Shown here: in pieces, positions 20,100 to 58,909 of the stretch
How positions within the stretch are numbered: position 1 is the first letter of the stretch
How the letters are laid out: each line of letters begins with the position of its first letter
NCBI RefSeq assembly: GCF_030463535.1
Contig: NC_132897.1
Location: 6,565,821-6,629,820 of the forward strand
Reading direction: 5' to 3'
Source: Salminus brasiliensis
Taxonomy: Eukaryota; Chordata; Actinopteri; Characiformes; Bryconidae
DNA length: 64,000 nt
Program-made: the position numbers and the translations under genes
Notes under the pieces: generated by a model
Told to the model about the DNA's origin: nothing
The model's input: only the letters and a program-made list of their open reading frames with translations
The model's database searches: none

Positions 20100-20381
20100 A
20101 AAAGGTAAAGGTGCACGTATTTGTCACTCTACAGTATACACACACACAAATGTGTCCTCTGCATTTAACCCATCTGTGGTAGTGAACACACACACTAGTG
20201 AACTAGGGGCAGTGAGTACACACACACCCAGAGCGGTGGGCAGCCAACTCCAGCGCCCGGGGAGCAGAGAGGGTAAAGGGCCTTGCTCAAGGGCCCAACA
20301 GTGGCAGCTTGCCAAGCCCAGGAATCGAACGTACAACCCTGTTATCGATAGCCCGGCGCTCTAACAGCTCTCATGGAGCCC
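20100..20381 (-). mobile_element. tRNA-derived SINE S1, copy 1
   Basis: Reverse complement of the S1 family. The A-box region ('gagctgttagagcgccggg' when read on minus), a B-box 'ggttcgattcc'-like stretch, the body 'ggcccttgagcaaggcccttt' and the tail 'gtgcacctttaccttt' are all present. Other copies are at 28629, 29456, 37737 and 58266. Confidence 0.75.
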
Positions 20382-22837: not shown

Positions 22838-23794
22838 TCAGTCATCGTCAACCTCGTCGCCCTCCGACTCTTCTCCTCCTCTCCTCTCGTACATCTTATC
22901 CCGCTGCCTCTCCTGTATCTCCTTCATCTCCTCGGCGTAGCGGCAGAAAGCTCCCCCAAACTTGCTCCAGGCTTTGAACGGTATCGTGATGGAGTTCCTG
23001 TAGCTGGGTTTGACCTCGCTCACCCTCAGAAACACTCCATACTTGTTGGAGCCCACGTCGAAGAAAAAGCGCTTCGAGTCCACCGTGATCGACGTGCCCT
23101 CGGGGAGCTCCCCGTAGCCCCCGCCGCAGCCCCCGCCGACCAGCTCGTCGTCCTCGCCGCCGTAGTCGTCTATCAGCTTGGCCAGCGCGTCGCGGAACTC
23201 TATTAGTCCCTGAGCCGGGAGGGCGATCGTCTGTCCGGACTGCATGCCGCCGCCGCCGCCGCCGCCGCCACCGCCACCGCCGCCGGGCACGCCTCCTCCG
23301 CCGCCGACCCCGAACCCAGGCCCGCGGTTGACGGTCTGGCGGATCCTGAGGAACCTCCCCCGCTGGTTCTCCTTCAGGTCGAGGTAGTATTTTCTGTTTT
23401 CCCTCACCAGAAACTCGCTCTTCAAGGCCCGTCGAGGCCCACCGTCATCGCCGCCTGAGGACTGAGCGATTTGCTCCGGGGTGCTGGGCCCCAGCTGGGC
23501 GTAGTGCTCTATGAAATCTCCCAGGTAGTCGCGAAACTCCGCTGCGACCGACATGGAAAGTGTCAGCCGACTTTTGGAGCCCCCGGCGCCGACCTCCGCG
23601 ATCTTGATGAACCGGCCCTTGGAGTTTTGCTTCACGTCCAAGTAGAAGCGCTTGTTCTGGATGTCCAGGCGTTTGGAGGCCAGCTCCTGGGTCTCCTGAT
23701 CCCGCTGGAAGTGCGGAAAGCCGCTGCCTCCACCCCCTCCGCCGCCGCCGCCACTGCTTCCACCGCGCTCACTCCCACTGTCCCCATCCGCCAT
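22838..23794 (-). CDS. purb: Pur-beta single-strand DNA/RNA-binding protein
   Basis: A single-exon frame of 318 residues from [11 protein letters not shown] to [11 protein letters not shown]. Vertebrate PURB is also intronless and slightly over 300 residues. Three PUR repeats are visible: about 34-100 ([17 protein letters not shown]), 122-210 ([18 protein letters not shown]) and 227-290 ([18 protein letters not shown]). They are followed by the acidic end. PUR proteins bind purine-rich single-stranded DNA and RNA and act in transcription repression, mRNA transport and muscle gene control. A second ATG lies in frame four codons upstream (23804-23806). I chose 23794 because MADGDSG is the conserved start and its context (aagATGG) fits Kozak. 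Fish-specific glycine runs at about 15-23 and 164-183 come from GGC/CCG repeats. YGELPEG before repeat III favours PURB over PURA or PURG. Confidence 0.97.
23247..23285 (-). repeat. (GGC)n repeat encoding polyglycine in purb
   Basis: A GCC/GGC-type trinucleotide run within the CDS that encodes an uninterrupted polyglycine between PUR repeats II and III. The frame is kept. Confidence 0.85.
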
Positions 23795-23887
23795 CTTCAC
23801 CATCACCAGGAGCTGCTCCTGCGTCCTGCGCAGCTTTACCGCTCTCCCTCCCTCACGGTCTAAAACGAGCGCAAATTCCCTCTATCT

Positions 23888-25164: not shown

Positions 25165-27885
25165 ATGGTATGTTTATGGGCTTTCTATCTGTACATCTAT
25201 GCGTTTTTTTTTTCTTTTCTTCCTACGGATCGCCGAGTAGTGCTTGCATGCGTGTCTGTTTTCTGTGTTGTTATAGCTAAATGTTTTAAAAGGCGTAAAA
25301 CAGTTGGTTAGCTTGCCTGCTGCTGAATTCGCCGATATGGAGAACCGCACGGTTTAAAGTACGATTAATAATAAATAAAAAAAAATTAAAAAAATTAAAA
25401 AAACGTTTCAATGCTAATTTCTCGACATTTTTAAAACGGCGTAATCTCCCGTTGAGATTAGGTTAAAATATATAACGTGGCTCTCTTTTCTAGCCGTAGC
25501 TCCAGATTAGTGCGGATAGATGAGCTACAAAGAGGATGTCAATAATTTTGGCAAATCCAGGTCCGGGAAGTCAAAATCCGCGCCAGGATTTTGCTCCAAC
25601 TGCCTGGACGGCTCCGCGCAGCGGAGCCGTCCAGGCAGTTGGAGCAAAATCCTGGCGCGGATTTTGACTTCCCGGACCTGGATTTGCCACCTCGACTGAG
25701 TAAATAAACGCCGCAAAGTTTGTGCTTTTCCCTTGAAAACAACTATGCTATGCTGGTTTATTGGGCCAATAATACACCCAAGTTGGTGCTAATTCAGAAT
25801 AAACATGGTTTAACATCTTTACAAACGTTTGAACGTATTTTTCTCTTGGATTTCAGCAAATGCAGTTTTCTGAGCGGGAGTTGGAGCTTAACCGTAGGCT
25901 GCTGATTTAGTTATTTCATTCATTGGGAGCCAGAAAGAGGTCGCTGGTCTTTCAGTAAGCGCTGGCATATTTTAATAGGTGGCAAACTAAATGTCTAAGT
26001 AGATATTTTAAGCACTTTTAGCCCATTTTAGGTTAATAAAGGGGGGATTCTCGGAGTAGTTGCGACCCTACTCGGCGGGAAACACCGCAGTGTGAATGAG
26101 GGACAGGGGGACTGTTTGCTAAACAGACTGACTTGCTGAGCTTCGCCTACTTTAACCCATTAGTGTCTGTAAACTTTTTAAAAAGTTTTTTAAAAGATCA
26201 TTTTGGGTCAAATGCTTGCTGAACTTGTCTGGGGACTAGCTTGAATATATTCTTTAAAATTTAACAATCAATATGGCTTAAAAAAGTAAGTTTGTAACGT
26301 TTGCTGTTATGTTAAATAGCTCCTTATATGGGGTTTCTGATTAAAAACAACATAGTAAATACTAAAATTCTTAAAGAAATGATAAATTATGTAATTTGTT
26401 AGAAATTTGATGCTTTTTAAAGCAATAACTACAATAACTTTTTCTGTTTACAACTTCCATATGGATGTTTTTTCTTTTTTCTTTTGAGAAAATAAATAAA
26501 TCTGGGTATCTTCAGTTAATAATGCATAATAGATAATTAACACCAACAGGTTTGGTTAACTCCAATAAAAAGTAGTGCAAAAATGACTTTAGCATGTTTG
26601 CTTATTTGCAGCTGACTTATATAAACAGGTCCGATACATAAGTTGCAAAAATATCATGTCTCACTTATTTAAAGCTTATTGCTTAAATTTGAGACATTAC
26701 CTGCGTTTGTTTTTGAGTGCATTTGTCATTCAGAGAAGTTTTGACTGCTACACCTGACGCCCCCTCTCTGTGTTTTAGGCCGGTGGCAAGGCAGGAAAAG
26801 ATAGCGGCAAAGCCAAGGCGAAAGCAGTGTCTCGCTCACAAAGGGCTGGACTTCAGGTAAGCTGTATGACCGTGCAGTTTCCCCTACTTCCTAGAATATG
26901 TAATGTTTAGGTGTGGACCATTTAGATTACTGGAAAGTTGTGAAGCAGTGGTTGAAAAGCAGGTTTGTCGCGATTTCGGTTGACTGTCTCTTCACTTCAG
27001 CCTTTTTGTAGTTTGTGTGTGATGTGACGGTTTGTTTTTGTAATGATGCAGGCATTAAAATCGCAAGTTAGTATGATAAGAGCATGAGTTGCTGTTTGGG
27101 ATGCTAGTAGTTATGATATATATACTGCTGCTGTCACATTTTTATATTTATAAATTATTTTTATAATTTATTATTGTTAATTTAAATGACATGCATCTGT
27201 TAGATTTTGCACCTGTAGTAAATGGGTTGGCTGTCTCTCCACCTGTTTGCAGTTCCCTGTGGGTCGTATCCACAGGCACTTGAAGACCCGTACTACCAGC
27301 CATGGGCGCGTGGGGGCTACAGCAGCGGTGTACAGTGCTGCCATCCTTGAATACCTGACAGCTGAGGTAAAGTTGGACACTTTTTACAGGGCTGTTTTTT
27401 TTTTTTTCCTCCCTAAACCGGATTGGCTTCCATAGTTGATTGACGTTATATATATCCTTAGGTGCTGGAGTTGGCAGGGAATGCCTCCAAAGATCTGAAG
27501 GTGAAGCGTATCACTCCCCGCCATTTACAGCTGGCCATCCGTGGAGATGAGGAGTTGGACTCCCTCATCAAGGCTACCATCGCTGGTGGCGGTGAGTTGG
27601 GATGCTTTCGGGCTTGGAATTGTTACTACTGTTGTGGAGCATTTATATACATATTAGTTAATGCACTGAGGAGTAATGGCTCTGTGTTGAACTCGGTTTG
27701 GCTCAGATGTTTTTTTCCATGGTTTTATTAAAAAAAAAAAGAAGTTAATTTTCTTTTAAGAGAAATGAGAATATGTCCTATTAAAGAGGATGGAGAGTAA
27801 TCTTGGATGTTTTGCTTCTGTAGGTGTGATCCCTCACATCCACAAGTCTCTGATTGGCAAGAAGGGCCAGCAGAAGACTGCATAA
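25165..27885 (+). CDS. h2az2: histone variant H2A.Z.2 (5 coding segments)
   Basis: Coding segments are 25165-25167 (ATG only), 26779-26856, 27253-27366, 27462-27591 and 27824-27885. All have GT-AG borders and give 128 residues. The protein has the H2A.Z N-tail [16 protein letters not shown], the [11 protein letters not shown] start of the fold, [21 protein letters not shown] in the second helix, and the H2A.Z docking end [16 protein letters not shown]. Three positions separate the paralogues: Ala14, Thr38 and final Ala identify H2A.Z.2 (formerly H2A.V), where H2A.Z.1 has Thr, Ser and Val. It matches my recollection of the human protein throughout. It replaces H2A in nucleosomes at promoters and enhancers, deposited by SRCAP/p400. 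The ATG-only first segment is the usual architecture. Divergent from purb, as in human. Teleosts may have two h2az2 copies, and I cannot tell which this is. Confidence 0.98.
25168..26778 (+). other. h2az2 intron 1
   Basis: A 1.6-kb intron between the ATG-only segment and coding segment 2. Donor GTATGT, acceptor 'ctgtgttttag'. It is AT-rich and free of recognised transposons but carries the large palindrome at 25550-25688. Confidence 0.85.
25550..25688. repeat. 139-bp perfect palindrome, 68-bp arms, 3-nt loop
   Basis: 25550-25617 is the exact reverse complement of 25621-25688, with loop GCA at 25618-25620. The arms are GC-richer than the surrounding intron and pairing stops abruptly at both outer borders. 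It lies in h2az2 intron 1, about 385 bp after the donor. No target-site duplication is clear at the borders and no coding meaning is seen. In RNA it would form a 68-bp hairpin. Confidence 0.97.
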
Positions 27886-28628
27886 TCACCATCGTCATTG
27901 CCGTGGTGACCTGGACTCAAGGACTCGCGTTTGGACTGTGACCAGATCAGCTTACGTTCATTTATTCATCCTTTTTTGTTTTGTTTTTTTCTTTACATTT
28001 TTTTCCTTTATTTTCTTTTAAATTAATGTTAATGTTGTACTAGCTAACCACCAGTGATTTTGTTAGGTTGTGTTATTGTTCTCTACAAAATTAGTTTAAA
28101 ACAGTTCTTCTACCCCCACCCAACCCCCCAAAGCTATTTTAGAGAGACGTGCAGGAATTGTGATCGTCCTGTTGTGAAAGTGAAATTAATTTGTTTGATT
28201 GGCCAGAGCTATGGAAGTGTTTTATACTGAAAAATGGAACCGATAAAAAGTTTTTTTACAAAACTGCTTCTTGTCATGTTTCGTATAATTCCAAGAAACC
28301 CCAACCCCAACACCCTACAGTTTCTCCCACTATCCTCACTGGTGGCTTGTGTGTACTATGTGCTGTCTTATGCTTATTGTGTGCAGGAACACAGGCGCTG
28401 GGTTATTGCCAGCTTTATCTAAACTAACAGGGGATTAGGACTTGGGTCCAGGTCTAACATGTGTTTTATGTGTTCAGCCAGGAAGTGTTTGGTGTCCAAA
28501 GTGTGCTTCTTTAGTTTTTCACTGGAGTTACAAGCCATTGACCCAGACCTCTAGGATATTGGCTCCAACCCAAAATTAAAGAACCAAGCATGTCTTGGCT
28601 GATTAATTATATAAGTAAGGGAATATAA
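27886..28628 (+). other. h2az2 3' UTR and flank
   Basis: Follows the stop codon. It is T-rich at 27970-28020. A possible polyadenylation signal ATTAAA lies at 28575-28580; no AATAAA is found before the SINE at 28629. H2A.Z mRNAs are polyadenylated, and no histone stem-loop is expected or seen. Confidence 0.5.
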
Positions 28629-28917
28629 GTGGTGGTTCAGCGGTTAGAGCGCCGGGATATCGATAACAGGGTTGTGGGTTCGATTCCCGGGTTTGGCAAG
28701 CTGCCACTGTTGGGCCCTTGAGCAAGGCCCTTTACCCTCTCTGCTCCCCGGGCGCTGGAGTTGGCTGCCCACCGCTCTGGGTGTGTGTGTGTGTACTCAC
28801 TGCCCCTAACACATGTGAGTGTGTGTTCACTACCAGATGGGTTAAATGCGGAGGACACATTTCGCTGTACAGTGTACAGTGACAAATACGTGCACCTTTA
28901 CCTTTTTTTTACCTTTA
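28629..28917 (+). mobile_element. tRNA-derived SINE S1, copy 2
   Basis: A-box-like 'ggttagagcgccggg', B-box 'gggttcgattcccgg', body 'ggcccttgagcaaggcccttt', an internal (GT)n run, 'gatgggttaaatgcggagg' and the tail 'gtgcacctttacctttt'. Near full length. Confidence 0.85.
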
Positions 28918-29430: not shown

Positions 29431-29455
29431 GTCTCTAATTGGAGATTTTTTTTTA

Positions 29456-29752
29456 TCCAGCAGTTAGAGCTCCGGGCTGTTGATAACAGGGTTGTGGGTT
29501 CGATTCCCGGGCTTGGCAAGCTGCCTCTGTTGGGCCCTTGAGCAAGGTCCTTTACCCTCTCTGCTCCCCGGGCGCTGGAGTTGGCTGCCCACCGCTCTGG
29601 GTGTGTGTGTGTGTGTGTGTATACTCACTGCCCCTAGTTCACTAGTGTGTGTGTGTGTGTTTTCACTACCACAGATGGGTTAAATGAGGAGGACACATTT
29701 CACTGTACAGTGAACAGTGACAAATACTTGCACCTTTACCTTTACCTTTGGA
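29456..29752 (+). mobile_element. tRNA-derived SINE S1, copy 3
   Basis: Starts slightly inside the family head ('agcagttagagctccggg'), has the B-box 'gggttcgattcccgggc', an expanded (GT)n and the 'acctttaccttt' tail. Confidence 0.8.
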
Positions 29753-30291: not shown

Positions 30292-30363
30292 GGCTCGTTG
30301 GTCTAGGGGTATGATTCTCGCTTAGGGTGCGAGAGGTCCCGGGTTCAAATCCCAGACGAGCCC
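30292..30363 (+). tRNA. tRNA-Pro (anticodon AGG)
   Basis: A 72-nt cloverleaf. The acceptor GGCTCGT pairs with ACGAGCC, followed by discriminator C. The D-arm is TGGTCTAGGGGTATG, the anticodon arm TCTCGCTTAGGGTGCGAGA with AGG, and the T-arm CCGGGTTCAAATCCCAG. The internal promoter boxes A and B are intact. A T4 terminator lies at 30367-30370. There is one C-A mismatch in the T stem, where the usual gene has CCCGG. No intron. It is probably functional. The sequence right after the terminator is related to the S1 SINE body. Confidence 0.9.
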
Positions 30364-30374: not shown

Positions 30375-30465
30375 GGCGGTGGTGGCTTCAATCCTCGGGC
30401 TCGGCAAGCTGCTACTGTTGGCCCCTTCACCCTCCCTGCTCCCTGGGCGCTGCAGCAGCAGTAGA
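30375..30465 (+). repeat. S1 SINE body fragment after tRNA-Pro
   Basis: 'cgggctcggcaagctgctac', 'tgttggccccttcaccctcc' and 'tgctccctgggcgctg' match the middle of S1 with deletions. The SINE's own tRNA-like head is missing and the true tRNA gene stands in its place. Confidence 0.6.
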
Positions 30466-35109: not shown

Positions 35110-35900
35110 ACCATATACTCAAGGTAATAGCGCAGTTAGTTCCGGCCACGCAAGCTGATTGGTCGAGACGCGCTCTAACCGTTCCGCTATTTCTCACAAC
35201 CACTGTATCACTCCGCTGAACGCTGTCGCTGTCCATCATACAGTGAACCAAGAATTAGGTAAATATCCTCAGCTAAAAACAGGAATGAGCTAAACTTCAA
35301 GGATTAAGACAAGAATACCCAAATAACTAACAAACAAGCAGGGAGGAGACGCGTGTTGGTCTGTGTAAAGAGCGGAAGAAGGGGCTGCAGGCTGCGCGGT
35401 GAGGGGAGGTCGGTGATGCGGCCTAGCAACTCGCCCCTCGTTAAGGAACTAGCTAGCTGGCACTATAATTTGGCGTAAAAATAGGAACAGAAGAAACTTC
35501 AGTATTATATATATATATATATATTACACTGAAGTTTCTTCTGTTCCTATTTTTACTTCTAGTCGTTATTTCACTTATGTCACAATACTTGTACTTCGGA
35601 GCGGCTACTTTAACCACTCTCCACCTCTGCTTTCCTCCCTGTTGAGTCGGGGTTATTAATTTGCTCCATCTCCGGTCTGGAGCAGAGAGGCGGTGTAAAC
35701 AAGCTGCTCTTCCTCATGCTGTCTAATTGCACCGCTGGGAGTCGCTATGAAGCCACTCCGCGCATGCGCGACAGCGCGTGAAGATCATCATCATCATCAT
35801 TACCGCTACAAGCATCATCAACTTCCGTCATTACAGAGCGAGCTGTCCGCAGTAATGGCTCTCGCTTTATCCCCCAGGCAGACGGCGGTTAACCTGAAGC
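35110..35900. promoter_or_regulatory. CpG-rich promoter-like region
   Basis: CpG density rises sharply against the AT-rich surroundings. It contains an inverted CCAAT box (gattggtcg, about 35157), a palindromic NRF1-type site GCGCATGCGC at about 35760-35769, and 'acttccgtca' (ETS/CRE-like) near 35820. It may be the promoter of the spliced hs3st1-like transcript on the minus strand, or of an unannotated noncoding RNA. A donor-like 'ttaggtaaat' occurs near 35258 on plus. No first exon can be fixed. Confidence 0.45.
35475..35556. repeat. 82-bp fold-back, 29-bp perfect arms with AT loop
   Basis: 35475-35503 is the exact reverse complement of 35528-35556. The 24-bp spacer is mostly (AT)n. It lies within the CpG-rich promoter-like region. 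Confidence 0.95.
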
Positions 35901-36130
35901 ATCGCAGGCTATCATTATATGACTGATGCTTTCAGGCCAGTGGTCTGAGTCACTACTAACGCTGCTTTTTTTGGTGCTGTGGTTCAGCAAAGTGGGAGAT
36001 TAGGCTGATATGGGACATTAGGGGGTGCTTTCATAAACTCTTTTATTATTCCAGTTTCATCTGATGCTAAAATAATGTTTTTTGTTAATGAACAAAAGGA
36101 AATACAATACTTATACTGATTTAAAAATAT

Positions 36131-37192
36131 ATACACTACACTATATATATATATATACTACACTATAAATATATACACTACACTAATATATATATATTAC
36201 ACTATAAATATATACACTACACTATATATATATACTACACTATAAATATATACACTTCACTAATATATATACTACACTATAAATATATACACTTCACTAA
36301 TATATATACTACACTATAAATATATACACTACACTAATATATATATACTACACTATAAATATATACACTACACTATATATATATACTACACTATAAATAT
36401 ATACACTACACTAATATATATATACTACACTATAAATATATACACTACACTATATATATATATACTACACTATAAATATATACACTACACTATATATATA
36501 TACTACACTATAAATATATACACTACACTAATATATATATACTACACTATAAATATATACACTACACTAATATATATATACTACACTATAAATATATACA
36601 CTTCACTAATATATATACTACACTATAAATATATACACTACACTAATATATATATACTACACTATAAATATATACACTACACTATAAATATACTACACTA
36701 TAAATATATACACTACACTAATATATATATACTACACTATAAATATATACACTACACTATATATATATACTACACTATAAATATATACATTACACTAATA
36801 TATATATACTACACTATAAATATATACACTTCACTAATATATATACTACACTATAAATATATACACTACACTATATATATATACTACACTATAAATATAT
36901 ACACTACACTAATATATATACTACACTATAAATATATACACTACACTATATATATATATACTACACTATAAATATATACACTACACTAATATATATATAC
37001 TACACTATAAATATATACACTACACTAATATATATATATACTACACTATAAATATATACACTACACTAATATATATATACTACACTATAAATATATACAC
37101 TACACTAATATATATATATACTACACTATAAATATATACACTACACTAATATATATATATACTACACTATAAATATATACACTACACTAACA
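36131..37192 (+). repeat. AT-rich minisatellite, about 37-41 bp unit
   Basis: About 27 tandem units of the type cactataaatatatacac followed by tacacta(a)(ta)nctaca. Units differ mainly in the length of the (TA)n part and in 'acactacac' versus 'acacttcac'. Nearly every unit carries TATAAATA. Confidence 0.97.
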
Positions 37193-37292
37193 TATAACCT
37201 GCAGCTCCAAGTCAGGTGAAGCTTTCACGTGAGCCGTCTATCACGCAACACTTGGATTCTGATGCTGTTGTGGATTTGGGTCTGTCAGACCT

Positions 37293-37530
37293 GTTACATT
37301 TACATTTATGCCATTTAGCAGACGCTCTTATGCAGAGCGACTTACAAGGTGACTCGTATTACACAGGTGGGTCAGTGTAGTGTTAGGAGTCTTGCCCAAG
37401 GACTCTTATTGGTGTAGCGCAGCACCACAGTCACCCAGACCAGGAATCGAACCCCAGTCTCCCACAGGTTGTGGTAGCTCAGTGGCAGGTAGTGGTGTTA
37501 TCTGTTGCGCCACACCAACCACCTGTTTCT
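37293..37530 (+). repeat. teleost 'TTTAGCAGACGCT' repeat, copy 1
   Basis: 'catttagcagacgctcttat' then 'agagcgacttacaaggtgac', ending '...gaatcgaaccccagtctccc'. This is a repeat found across teleosts, with a second copy at 38622-38805 in the same orientation. Confidence 0.7.
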
Positions 37531-37736: not shown

Positions 37737-37969
37737 CAGTGGTGGCTCAGCGGTTAGAGCACCGGGATATCGATAACAGGGTTGTGGGTTCAATTCCTGG
37801 GATCGGTAAGCTGCCACTGTTGGGCCCTTGAGCAAGGCCCTTTACTCTCTCTGCTCCCCGGGCGCTGGAGGTGTGTGTGTGTGTGTGTGTGTGTGTTCAC
37901 TACCAGATGGGTTAAATGTGGAGGACACATTTCGCTGTACAGTGACAGATACGTGCACTTTTACCTTTA
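37737..37969 (+). mobile_element. tRNA-derived SINE S1, copy 4 (internal deletion)
   Basis: Head 'ggtggctcagcggttagagc', B-box region, 'gggcgctggag' joined directly to (GT)n, then 'gatgggttaaatgtggagg' and the tail. The 'ttggctgcccaccgctctgg' part of the family is missing. Confidence 0.8.
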
Positions 37970-38620
37970 AATTACTGAAATGTCAATAAAAGCCAGGAAA
38001 ATTGGGGGTGTTCTGAAACTTTTGACCATTAGTGTATATTTAGAGGGAAAGGGAATCCCTCTTTAAAGAATAGCTTTTCTGGCTACCATGCAAAGCCTGT
38101 GATCATCATGTAAAACTAACTTGCAAAAGTTAATGTAAGCTTTGACGACCACAACTGCTGGAAGTATGTTAGTAACACTAACATGATTGCCTGGCTCACC
38201 CCCATTTATGTTTTCGCACTTGCATGCACCATTTTAATCAGTTTTCAATTAGGAAACTCAGTAGTTAGGACTCAATGCTAACATCTACTCCCTTCAAACA
38301 GGAAGACGGACGGCCATTCTACCCACCCAGAGAGTGCAAGGCCAGTTAGACTCTTCGGGACTCCTAGTCACGGATGGCTGTGGCATCACTAGGGATGGAA
38401 CCTGTGACCTACCGATGATGGAGCCAATAAGGTAAGTTAGCAGTGTTGTAGTCGAGACCACTTGGGTTAAGACAGAAAAATATATATTTGTTTGTAGTTC
38501 ATTTACATACAGATGGTGTTCAGGTAACACCCCTAAAAGGAAGGCCTTCTGTATAATTGTTCTTTTCCAGGTCAAAAATCTTAGTCTAATATAAAAAGCA
38601 TAATATCACCATAGCATAAG
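37970..38620. other. intergenic, no gene seen
   Basis: Nothing recognised. Confidence 0.3.
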
Positions 38621-49085: not shown

Positions 49086-49482
49086 CAGACTTGTTTTGTT
49101 TTTGTCATTTTTCACAGTAAAACTAACTAACTAAGTGCAGAGAGTGCAGACTCAAACCTAGATACATGTACTCCATTCATTAATCATGAAATTATGCAGT
49201 GGAATTACACAATTCTATTTCAGTAAAAAAAACTCAAAGATAAATGGCTGACATGCTCAGTAGTGCCATGAAATTGTGAGAAAGCAGCAGTAATGTAAAA
49301 TACATGATAAGGGTATCTGTAGGTTTTAGTTCAATACGTATAGTTGTTTTTTATGCCATAAGGTGAAGAAAAATATTTAATACTTTTTTCATGTTGTCAC
49401 AGCTGTTTGATACTGGAATACAACAGTGCTTCAGGTAGCCTAAGAAACTAAGGAGTAGTTGAACCTGAGTATCCTGCATTAT

Positions 49483-49506
49483 CAGAATATGAATGTAATA
49501 AATGTA

Positions 49507-49564
<58 letters not shown>

Positions 49565-49588
49565 TACATTTATTACATTCATATTCTG
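49483..49588. repeat. 106-bp perfect palindrome centred on (AT)25
   Basis: Unique-looking arms at 49483-49510 and 49561-49588 are exact reverse complements, and the 50 bp between them are (AT)25, itself self-complementary. The whole is one perfect palindrome without a loop. Confidence 0.96.
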
Positions 49589-49721
49589 TTAATATACTAT
49601 ATATATAATATTATAAGATTTATAATATAATATTATAAATTAAACTTTTAAATTTTACGTTTAAGAGGTTAAACAAGAACTTAAATATGTAATAAATAAA
49701 TAGGTCGTCCTTTCTTAATAC

Positions 49722-58139: not shown

Positions 58140-58909
58140 CACTATATGGACAAAAGTATTGGGACACCTACTCATTCATTGTTTCTTCTGAAATCAAAGG
58201 TAATAATTAAGGGTTGATCCTGCTTTTGTTGGAGGAACTGTCTCTACTGTCCAGGGACAAAGTGGGCAGTGGTGGCTCAGCGGTTAGAGCGCCGGGATAT
58301 CGATAACAGGGTTGTGGGTTCGATTCCCGGGCTCGGCAAGCTGCCACTGTTGGGCCCTTGAGCAAGGCCCTTTACCCTCTCTGCTCCCCGGGCGCTGGAG
58401 TTGGCTGCCCACCGCTCTGGGTGTGTGTGTGTACTCACTGCCCCTAACACGTGTGTGAGTGTGTGTTCACTACCAGATGGGTTAAATGCGGAGGACACAT
58501 TTCGCTGTACAGTCCACACTGTACAGTGACGAATACGTGCACCTTTATCCTTTTACCTTTTATCCTTTATGAAGGCTTTCTACTAGATTTTGATGGGGCA
58601 TTGCTGTGAGAATCTGATTACATTCAGCAGCAAGAGCGTTAGTGAGGTCGGGATGTTGGATGATCACCATCCCACATCATCCCTTCCCAACTCCCCAACA
58701 ATTCCACTGCTCCACAGCTCAATTCTGGGGGGCTCTATACCCCCTGGCACACGTCTGGCATTAGGCATGGTGCCTATAGGTTCATGTTTATCTGCTCCAG
58801 AGAGTCTTATTTTACTGGCAGCACTTCTCTACAGGGACTAGACAAGCTGTGTTAAGTAACCGAATGCATTCATTTGAGGGGGTGTTCACAAACATTGGGA
58901 CATGCAGTG
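58140..58909 (+). mobile_element. MITE family M2 copy interrupted by a SINE
   Basis: Ends 'cactatatggacaaaagtat' and 'cattgggacatgcagtg' enclose the M2 body, which is split by an S1 SINE between 'tgtccaggga' and 'aggctttctac'. Confidence 0.8.
58266..58567 (+). mobile_element. tRNA-derived SINE S1, copy 5
   Basis: The cleanest copy. Head 'ggtggctcagcggttagagc', 'gggttcgattcccgggctcg', body, two (GT)n runs, 'gatgggttaaatgcggagg' and a tail of repeated 'acctttatcc/accttt'. Confidence 0.88.

Follow-up and report, generated by a model that had tools for sequence, protein, structure and literature searches.

The window analysed here was a stretch of 64 kb of the Salminus brasiliensis genome, in which a perfect palindrome was located inside the first intron of an H2A.Z gene. 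The features at this locus were as follows.

25549..25617, plus strand: left arm of the palindrome, 69 bp (inverted-repeat comparison)
25618..25620, no strand: loop GCA, between the arms
25621..25689, minus strand: right arm of the palindrome, 69 bp, perfect reverse complement of the left arm (inverted-repeat comparison)
about 25168..26778, plus strand: intron 1 of the H2A.Z (h2az2-like) gene, hosting the palindrome (exon matches, and splice sites by eye)

Matches to H2A.Z began at 26779, 27247, 27447 and 27808. Read by eye, a GT donor came directly after an ATG at 25165-25167, and the codons A-G-G-K were preceded by an AG at 26777-26778, which together placed intron 1 at about 25168-26778. 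A purb-like coding region, also recognised by eye, was found upstream of the H2A.Z gene in divergent orientation (22900-23795, minus strand).

The inverted repeat covered 141 bp in total and its arms were 100% complementary, with zero mismatches. The first-pass annotation had reported a perfect palindrome at 25550..25688; its perfection and its GCA loop were retained, while the arms were 69 instead of 68 bp long and the whole structure 141 instead of 139 bp. The sharp edges, the GC-richer arms and the placement in intron 1 that it had also described were borne out: complementarity was confined to 25549-25689, GC content amounted to 59% in the arm versus 39.5% in the 500 bp on either side and 35% in the remainder of intron 1, and the placement agreed with the exon matches and splice sites. 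Among hairpins with loops shorter than 60 nt, the palindrome was the longest perfect one of the window, the runner-up (53 bp) being centred on an AT repeat. Folded as RNA, positions 25530-25708 reached -156.4 kcal/mol versus -54.3 (sd 4.3) in 200 dinucleotide shuffles (z = -23.9), none of which attained this energy (0/200), and the palindrome was likewise the strongest fold of the window when 300-nt stretches of the plus strand were taken at 75-base steps. A chance origin of the palindrome is excluded.

At the gathering threshold, the window's only Rfam matches were UnaL2 and a tRNA, with nothing at the palindrome. A distant search of phage records returned six weak matches, none with 80% coverage, and an exact 22-mer had no match among viral contigs; a literature search with pieces of the arm yielded unrelated work only and no fish paper. 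The window displayed further repeats. A second hairpin at 49478-49593 had 58-bp arms of 98% complementarity around a (TA)n run, and another at 35475-35556 had perfect 29-bp arms around a TA-rich loop of 24 nt. A probable SINE, a dispersed repeat that includes a tRNA-like stretch, was present at 28628-28905, 29448-29743, 37738-37975 and 58268-58545, and in inverted orientation at 20218-20369; a weaker relative was seen at 30378-30427, after the Rfam tRNA match (30292-30363). The UnaL2 LINE 3' element (37305-37358, minus strand) lay just past a 39-bp tandem array at 36125-37196.

No second copy of the palindrome was found within the 64-kb window, a lack which would by itself mislead towards a one-off origin. 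In a whole-genome search of the 1.07-Gb assembly, which placed the window at G000:C20:6565821-6629820, 40 places with 80 matches were scored from 289 candidates, and the closest other copy among the matches listed was 88% identical to that of the window. An exact 21-mer of one arm, a pattern not selective for palindromes, matched the genome 140 times (73 forward and 67 reverse), and its reversed control gave 0 matches. A one-off inverted duplication at the H2A.Z locus was considered and rejected, as the sequence belongs to a multi-copy family. The arm had thus been searched against its own genome, as the first-pass annotation had proposed; many copies of the same palindrome, it had added, would make this an ordinary fold-back MITE. 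A many-copy family was indeed recovered, but its listed copies each differed from the palindrome of the window. Among the origins that the annotation had put forward, the fold-back element is supported by these copies and by the ends and target duplications described below, at the expense of the inverted duplication and the assembly artefact.

Sequences were fetched for the 39 other places of the whole-genome search and for the places behind 100 listed of the 140 one-arm matches. Leaving out L021 and L029, in which the anchor was not found, and L040 reduced the 40-copy set to 37 copies. Of these, 34 were short-loop copies (loops of 0-4 nt), L028, L043 and L044 (loops of 11-21 nt) being set aside. 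The one-arm sample comprised 75 places behind the 100 listed matches, 28 of them one-armed and 47 two-armed. Scans for loop size, distance to consensus and private blocks left out six places that were already in the 40-copy set (L009, L011, L013, L018, L022 and L038); these were added back for the count of centre dependence, which covered 75 of 75 places. For L117, only the first of two arm pairings entered the counts.

The consensus of the 37 copies started with CAGAGGTGGC, a family end that both ends of one copy (L033) matched exactly, and an 8-bp direct repeat lay immediately outside the consensus ends. Of 38 copies, 9 matched at seven or eight of the eight positions of this duplication, against 0.03 expected from cross-paired flanks, and 14 matched at five or more positions (1.4 expected). 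CAG ends (CAGNG terminal inverted repeats) and 8-bp target duplications characterise hAT transposons. As judged from its ends CAGAGGTGGC and its 8-bp duplications, the family is a hAT-type palindromic (fold-back) MITE, a known kind of element; like such MITEs, it was short (141 bp) and dispersed in many copies. The outer parts of the window copy were the following.

25690..25698, minus strand: decayed right outer end (aligned by eye with the family end)
25538..25545, no strand: weak candidate left target-site duplication GTCAATAA, matching 25700-25707 at 7/8 positions
25700..25707, no strand: weak candidate right target-site duplication GTAAATAA, matching 25538-25545 at 7/8 positions

Read from the outside on the minus strand and together with the first arm bases, the right end was CAGTCGAGGTGGC, to be compared with the family end CAGAGGTGGC, and the left outer end was unrecognisable past GGC. 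The 7/8 match between GTCAATAA and GTAAATAA lay at unequal distances from the arms and, about 0.2 such matches being expected per copy across the offsets tried, it was not significant.

The arms were far more alike within copies than between them. In the 37 copies, they mismatched at 49 of 2152 positions (2.3%) versus a mean of 20.1% between copies; 23 copies displayed no difference at all between their arms, and in 33 no other sampled copy was as close to the arms as they were to each other. Departures from the consensus were mostly found in both arms, as in repeats homogenised by template switching, with 256 mirrored versus 51 one-sided departures in all 37 copies and 247 versus 24 in the 34 short-loop copies. 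States private to a single copy were mirrored in 26 cases and one-sided in 13 (37 copies), and all four departures within the arm of the window copy were mirrored. In the 34 short-loop copies, CpG column 37 read CG/CG 22 times and CA/CA 12 times and was never mixed. Counted from the outside inwards, the CpG columns 22-23 and 37-38 of these copies showed CG or CA and never TG; this polarity may be relative to the hairpin centre, or subfamilies explain it equally well.

One might attribute the matching arms to selection for a function of the hairpin, pairing being kept by compensatory substitution. The very stable fold within a transcribed intron would agree with this; the pattern was, however, seen across dozens of dispersed copies, and even CpG column 37 was without a mixed copy (0/34), so that selection appears extremely doubtful. 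Perfect arms together with differences among copies would also be accounted for if the insertions were recent and derived from varied master palindromes, each arriving perfect and having had no time to diverge. The 230 mirrored departures that were shared with other copies may be inherited as mirrored states and are in keeping with such masters. Against them stands the similarity among the 54 palindromic copies compared, for which the best non-self identity over at least 100 bp had a median of 89.8% and a maximum of 96.0%, with the reservation that closer relatives may exist elsewhere; the sole identical pair proved to be one place fetched twice. Short-loop copies were also farther from the consensus than long-loop copies (26.6% versus 22.0%; Mann-Whitney p 0.046).

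The edges of the insertions pointed in the same direction. From the outer end inwards, mismatch between left and right fell from 61% in columns 1-5, which is the level found between copies, and 30% in columns 6-10 to 4.9%, 3.8%, 1.6% and 1.6% (37 copies). A target duplication could be recognised in 14 copies; it mismatched at 19 of 112 positions (17%, a low estimate since these copies were selected for at least 5/8 duplication matches) and the outer 10 bp at 47 of 140 (34%). The arm interiors of these same 14 copies mismatched at only 26 of 824 positions, 23 of which belonged to L028, L037 and L043. Duplications and outer ends had thus decayed in the very copies whose arms agreed, which makes recent insertion from varied masters improbable. 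As an observation apart, the outer end was more diverged than the adjoining duplication, as though the hairpin base mutated with particular frequency.

The arms could instead have been equalised once, before insertion, if amplification passed through a hairpin intermediate that underwent fill-in or mismatch repair; Izsvak et al. reportedly proposed a hairpin-based model of amplification for Angel in 1999. One step per copy would then provide both perfect arms and private variants. After insertion, though, the arms should have diverged like the target duplications, which they have not, and neither the gradient from 61% to 1.6% at the edges nor a copy with three arms (L117, see below) would be explained. 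Equalisation before insertion is accordingly regarded as quite improbable.

Likeness of the arms depended on the centre of the hairpin. Where the centre was intact, as defined by the original motif spacing of 24 or 35 bp (24 copies), the opposite arm mismatched the motif at 5 of 504 positions, versus 66 of 463 in 23 copies with an altered centre, defined by any other motif spacing (Fisher 4.5e-17). Zero motif mismatch was encountered in 21 of the 24 intact-centre copies versus 5 of the 23 altered-centre copies. Short spacers were favoured, as in repeats homogenised by template switching; the five exceptions indicated that a short centre is not strictly required. In the adjoining 25 bp outwards, intact-centre copies mismatched at 52 of 597 positions because the perfect core ended sharply at varying places, and the arm-matching effect was thus limited to a core of variable length. 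An altered centre could be a consequence instead of a cause of arm divergence. By local alignment in the first sample, L028, L043 and L044 (loops of 11-21 nt) displayed an arm divergence of 10-18% versus at most 6% elsewhere. Loop size from local alignment (Spearman 0.68) was rejected as a measure, as it depends on arm divergence, and the spacer between arm motifs was used in its place.

Identical inverted arms can mislead short-read polishing, and the perfection of the palindromes might be ascribed to an assembly in which reads from one arm corrected the other. The altered-centre copies retained their 66 arm mismatches in the same assembly, however, and base polishing could not produce mirrored private blocks as long as those described next (18-28 bp); an artefact of assembly or polishing is therefore held to be very improbable.

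Both arms of L100 had an outer half that was foreign to the family and mirrored, a single mismatch being found in 73 bp. Smaller private blocks, perfectly mirrored, were present in L076, L093, L110, L116 and L082. No full private block recurred outside its own copy, either in the fetched loci or in the window; the block of L116 had a partial match in L035, with which it has family sequence in common. In L117 (G000:C17:31812057-31812757), which had three arms, the right arm was present twice in tandem and carried identical private changes. The private blocks and the three-armed L117 suggest that a foreign stretch may enter one arm and then be copied to the other. A different arrangement was seen in L073, where three altered-centre copies with shared flanks stood in tandem over about 650 bp on G000:C6 (5283659-5284307).

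Taken together, we consider it likely that these palindromes are old hAT-type insertions whose arms were kept identical after insertion through hairpin-dependent copying, probably by template switching during replication. We infer both the rewriting in place and its replicative mechanism. A strand would fold at the short centre into a hairpin, in which one arm would serve as template for rewriting the other. The most likely route would be template switching in DNA replication (quasipalindrome correction); a possible second route would be fold-back repair once the extruded hairpin had broken, and repair following such cleavage would fit copies that lost the outer end on one side. A change in one arm would soon be erased or copied across to the opposite arm, the outermost bases and the target duplication would lie outside the rewritten core and decay, and once the centre was altered or lost, rewriting would fail and the arms would drift apart. 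Template switching between inverted-repeat arms predicts all four features: arms alike inside each copy, an effect of the centre, sharp edges and copied blocks. The ratio of mirrored to one-sided departures, from 2:1 for private states to 10:1 in short-loop copies, would imply, if one-sided changes are those awaiting copying, that rewriting is several times faster than base change, as a relative and not a clocked rate.

The first-pass annotation had concluded from the perfect identity of the arms that the structure was very recent, homogenised or selected. Homogenisation is the likely alternative, and recency is not required, as most variants were mirrored. Dating palindromic MITEs by the identity of their arms may thus mislead, since perfect arms do not have to signal a young insertion. 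The persistence of stem pairing and the frequency of template switching at hairpins of the vertebrate germ line are hard to measure at single loci. Palindromes of varied age, loop, edge and mirrored variants would make it possible to read from genome sequence alone how fast copying proceeds, how it depends on the loop, how long its tracts are and in which direction it runs. Somewhat more tentatively, we favour the view that the family works as a genome-wide natural assay, in which rewriting proceeds at many sites several times faster than mutation, carries private blocks along, ceases with loss of the centre and leaves an edge rich in mutations. As a natural record of hairpin-dependent rewriting in vertebrate DNA, the family is unusually good, owing to how closely its arms match, to the centre dependence and to the mirrored private blocks. 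Among the matches listed in the open-access literature, no earlier description of arm homogenisation in MITEs was found.

Angel elements of zebrafish are described as imperfect palindromes, the inverted-repeat structure of which was kept despite strong divergence. The family reported here differs from Angel so described by its many perfect copies and its copy-private mirrored blocks. Both are found in fish and are short, non-coding, palindromic, of class hAT, present in many copies and able to form dsRNA; this resemblance is one of features. Angel is a palindromic MITE of RepBase class hAT (PMC8096273) with a copy number of 10^3-10^4 (PMC2579443). ANGEL RNA is heavily edited in zebrafish, at 62 of 63 adenosines in the most prominent copy (PMC8096273); the h2az2 pre-mRNA would carry a perfect RNA duplex of 69 bp and would likewise be a likely ADAR substrate.

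Parallels to the proposed mechanism were encountered in studies of template switching. In yeast, template switching homogenises the arms of inverted repeats and favours shorter spacers (PMC8604942), and elsewhere it was inferred to create, repair and maintain stems and to transfer insertions from one half of a stem to the other (PMC8794818). These systems and the present family have in common that arms turn identical, that short spacers are favoured and that changes or insertions are copied across the stem. Long perfect inverted repeats were likewise reported from mitochondrial genes of nematomorphs (PMC6649704), but these are organellar, coding and non-mobile. The template-switch systems concern short repeats in yeast genes and RNA stems, whereas the arms described here are about 50-80 bp long and belong to a dispersed vertebrate repeat family.
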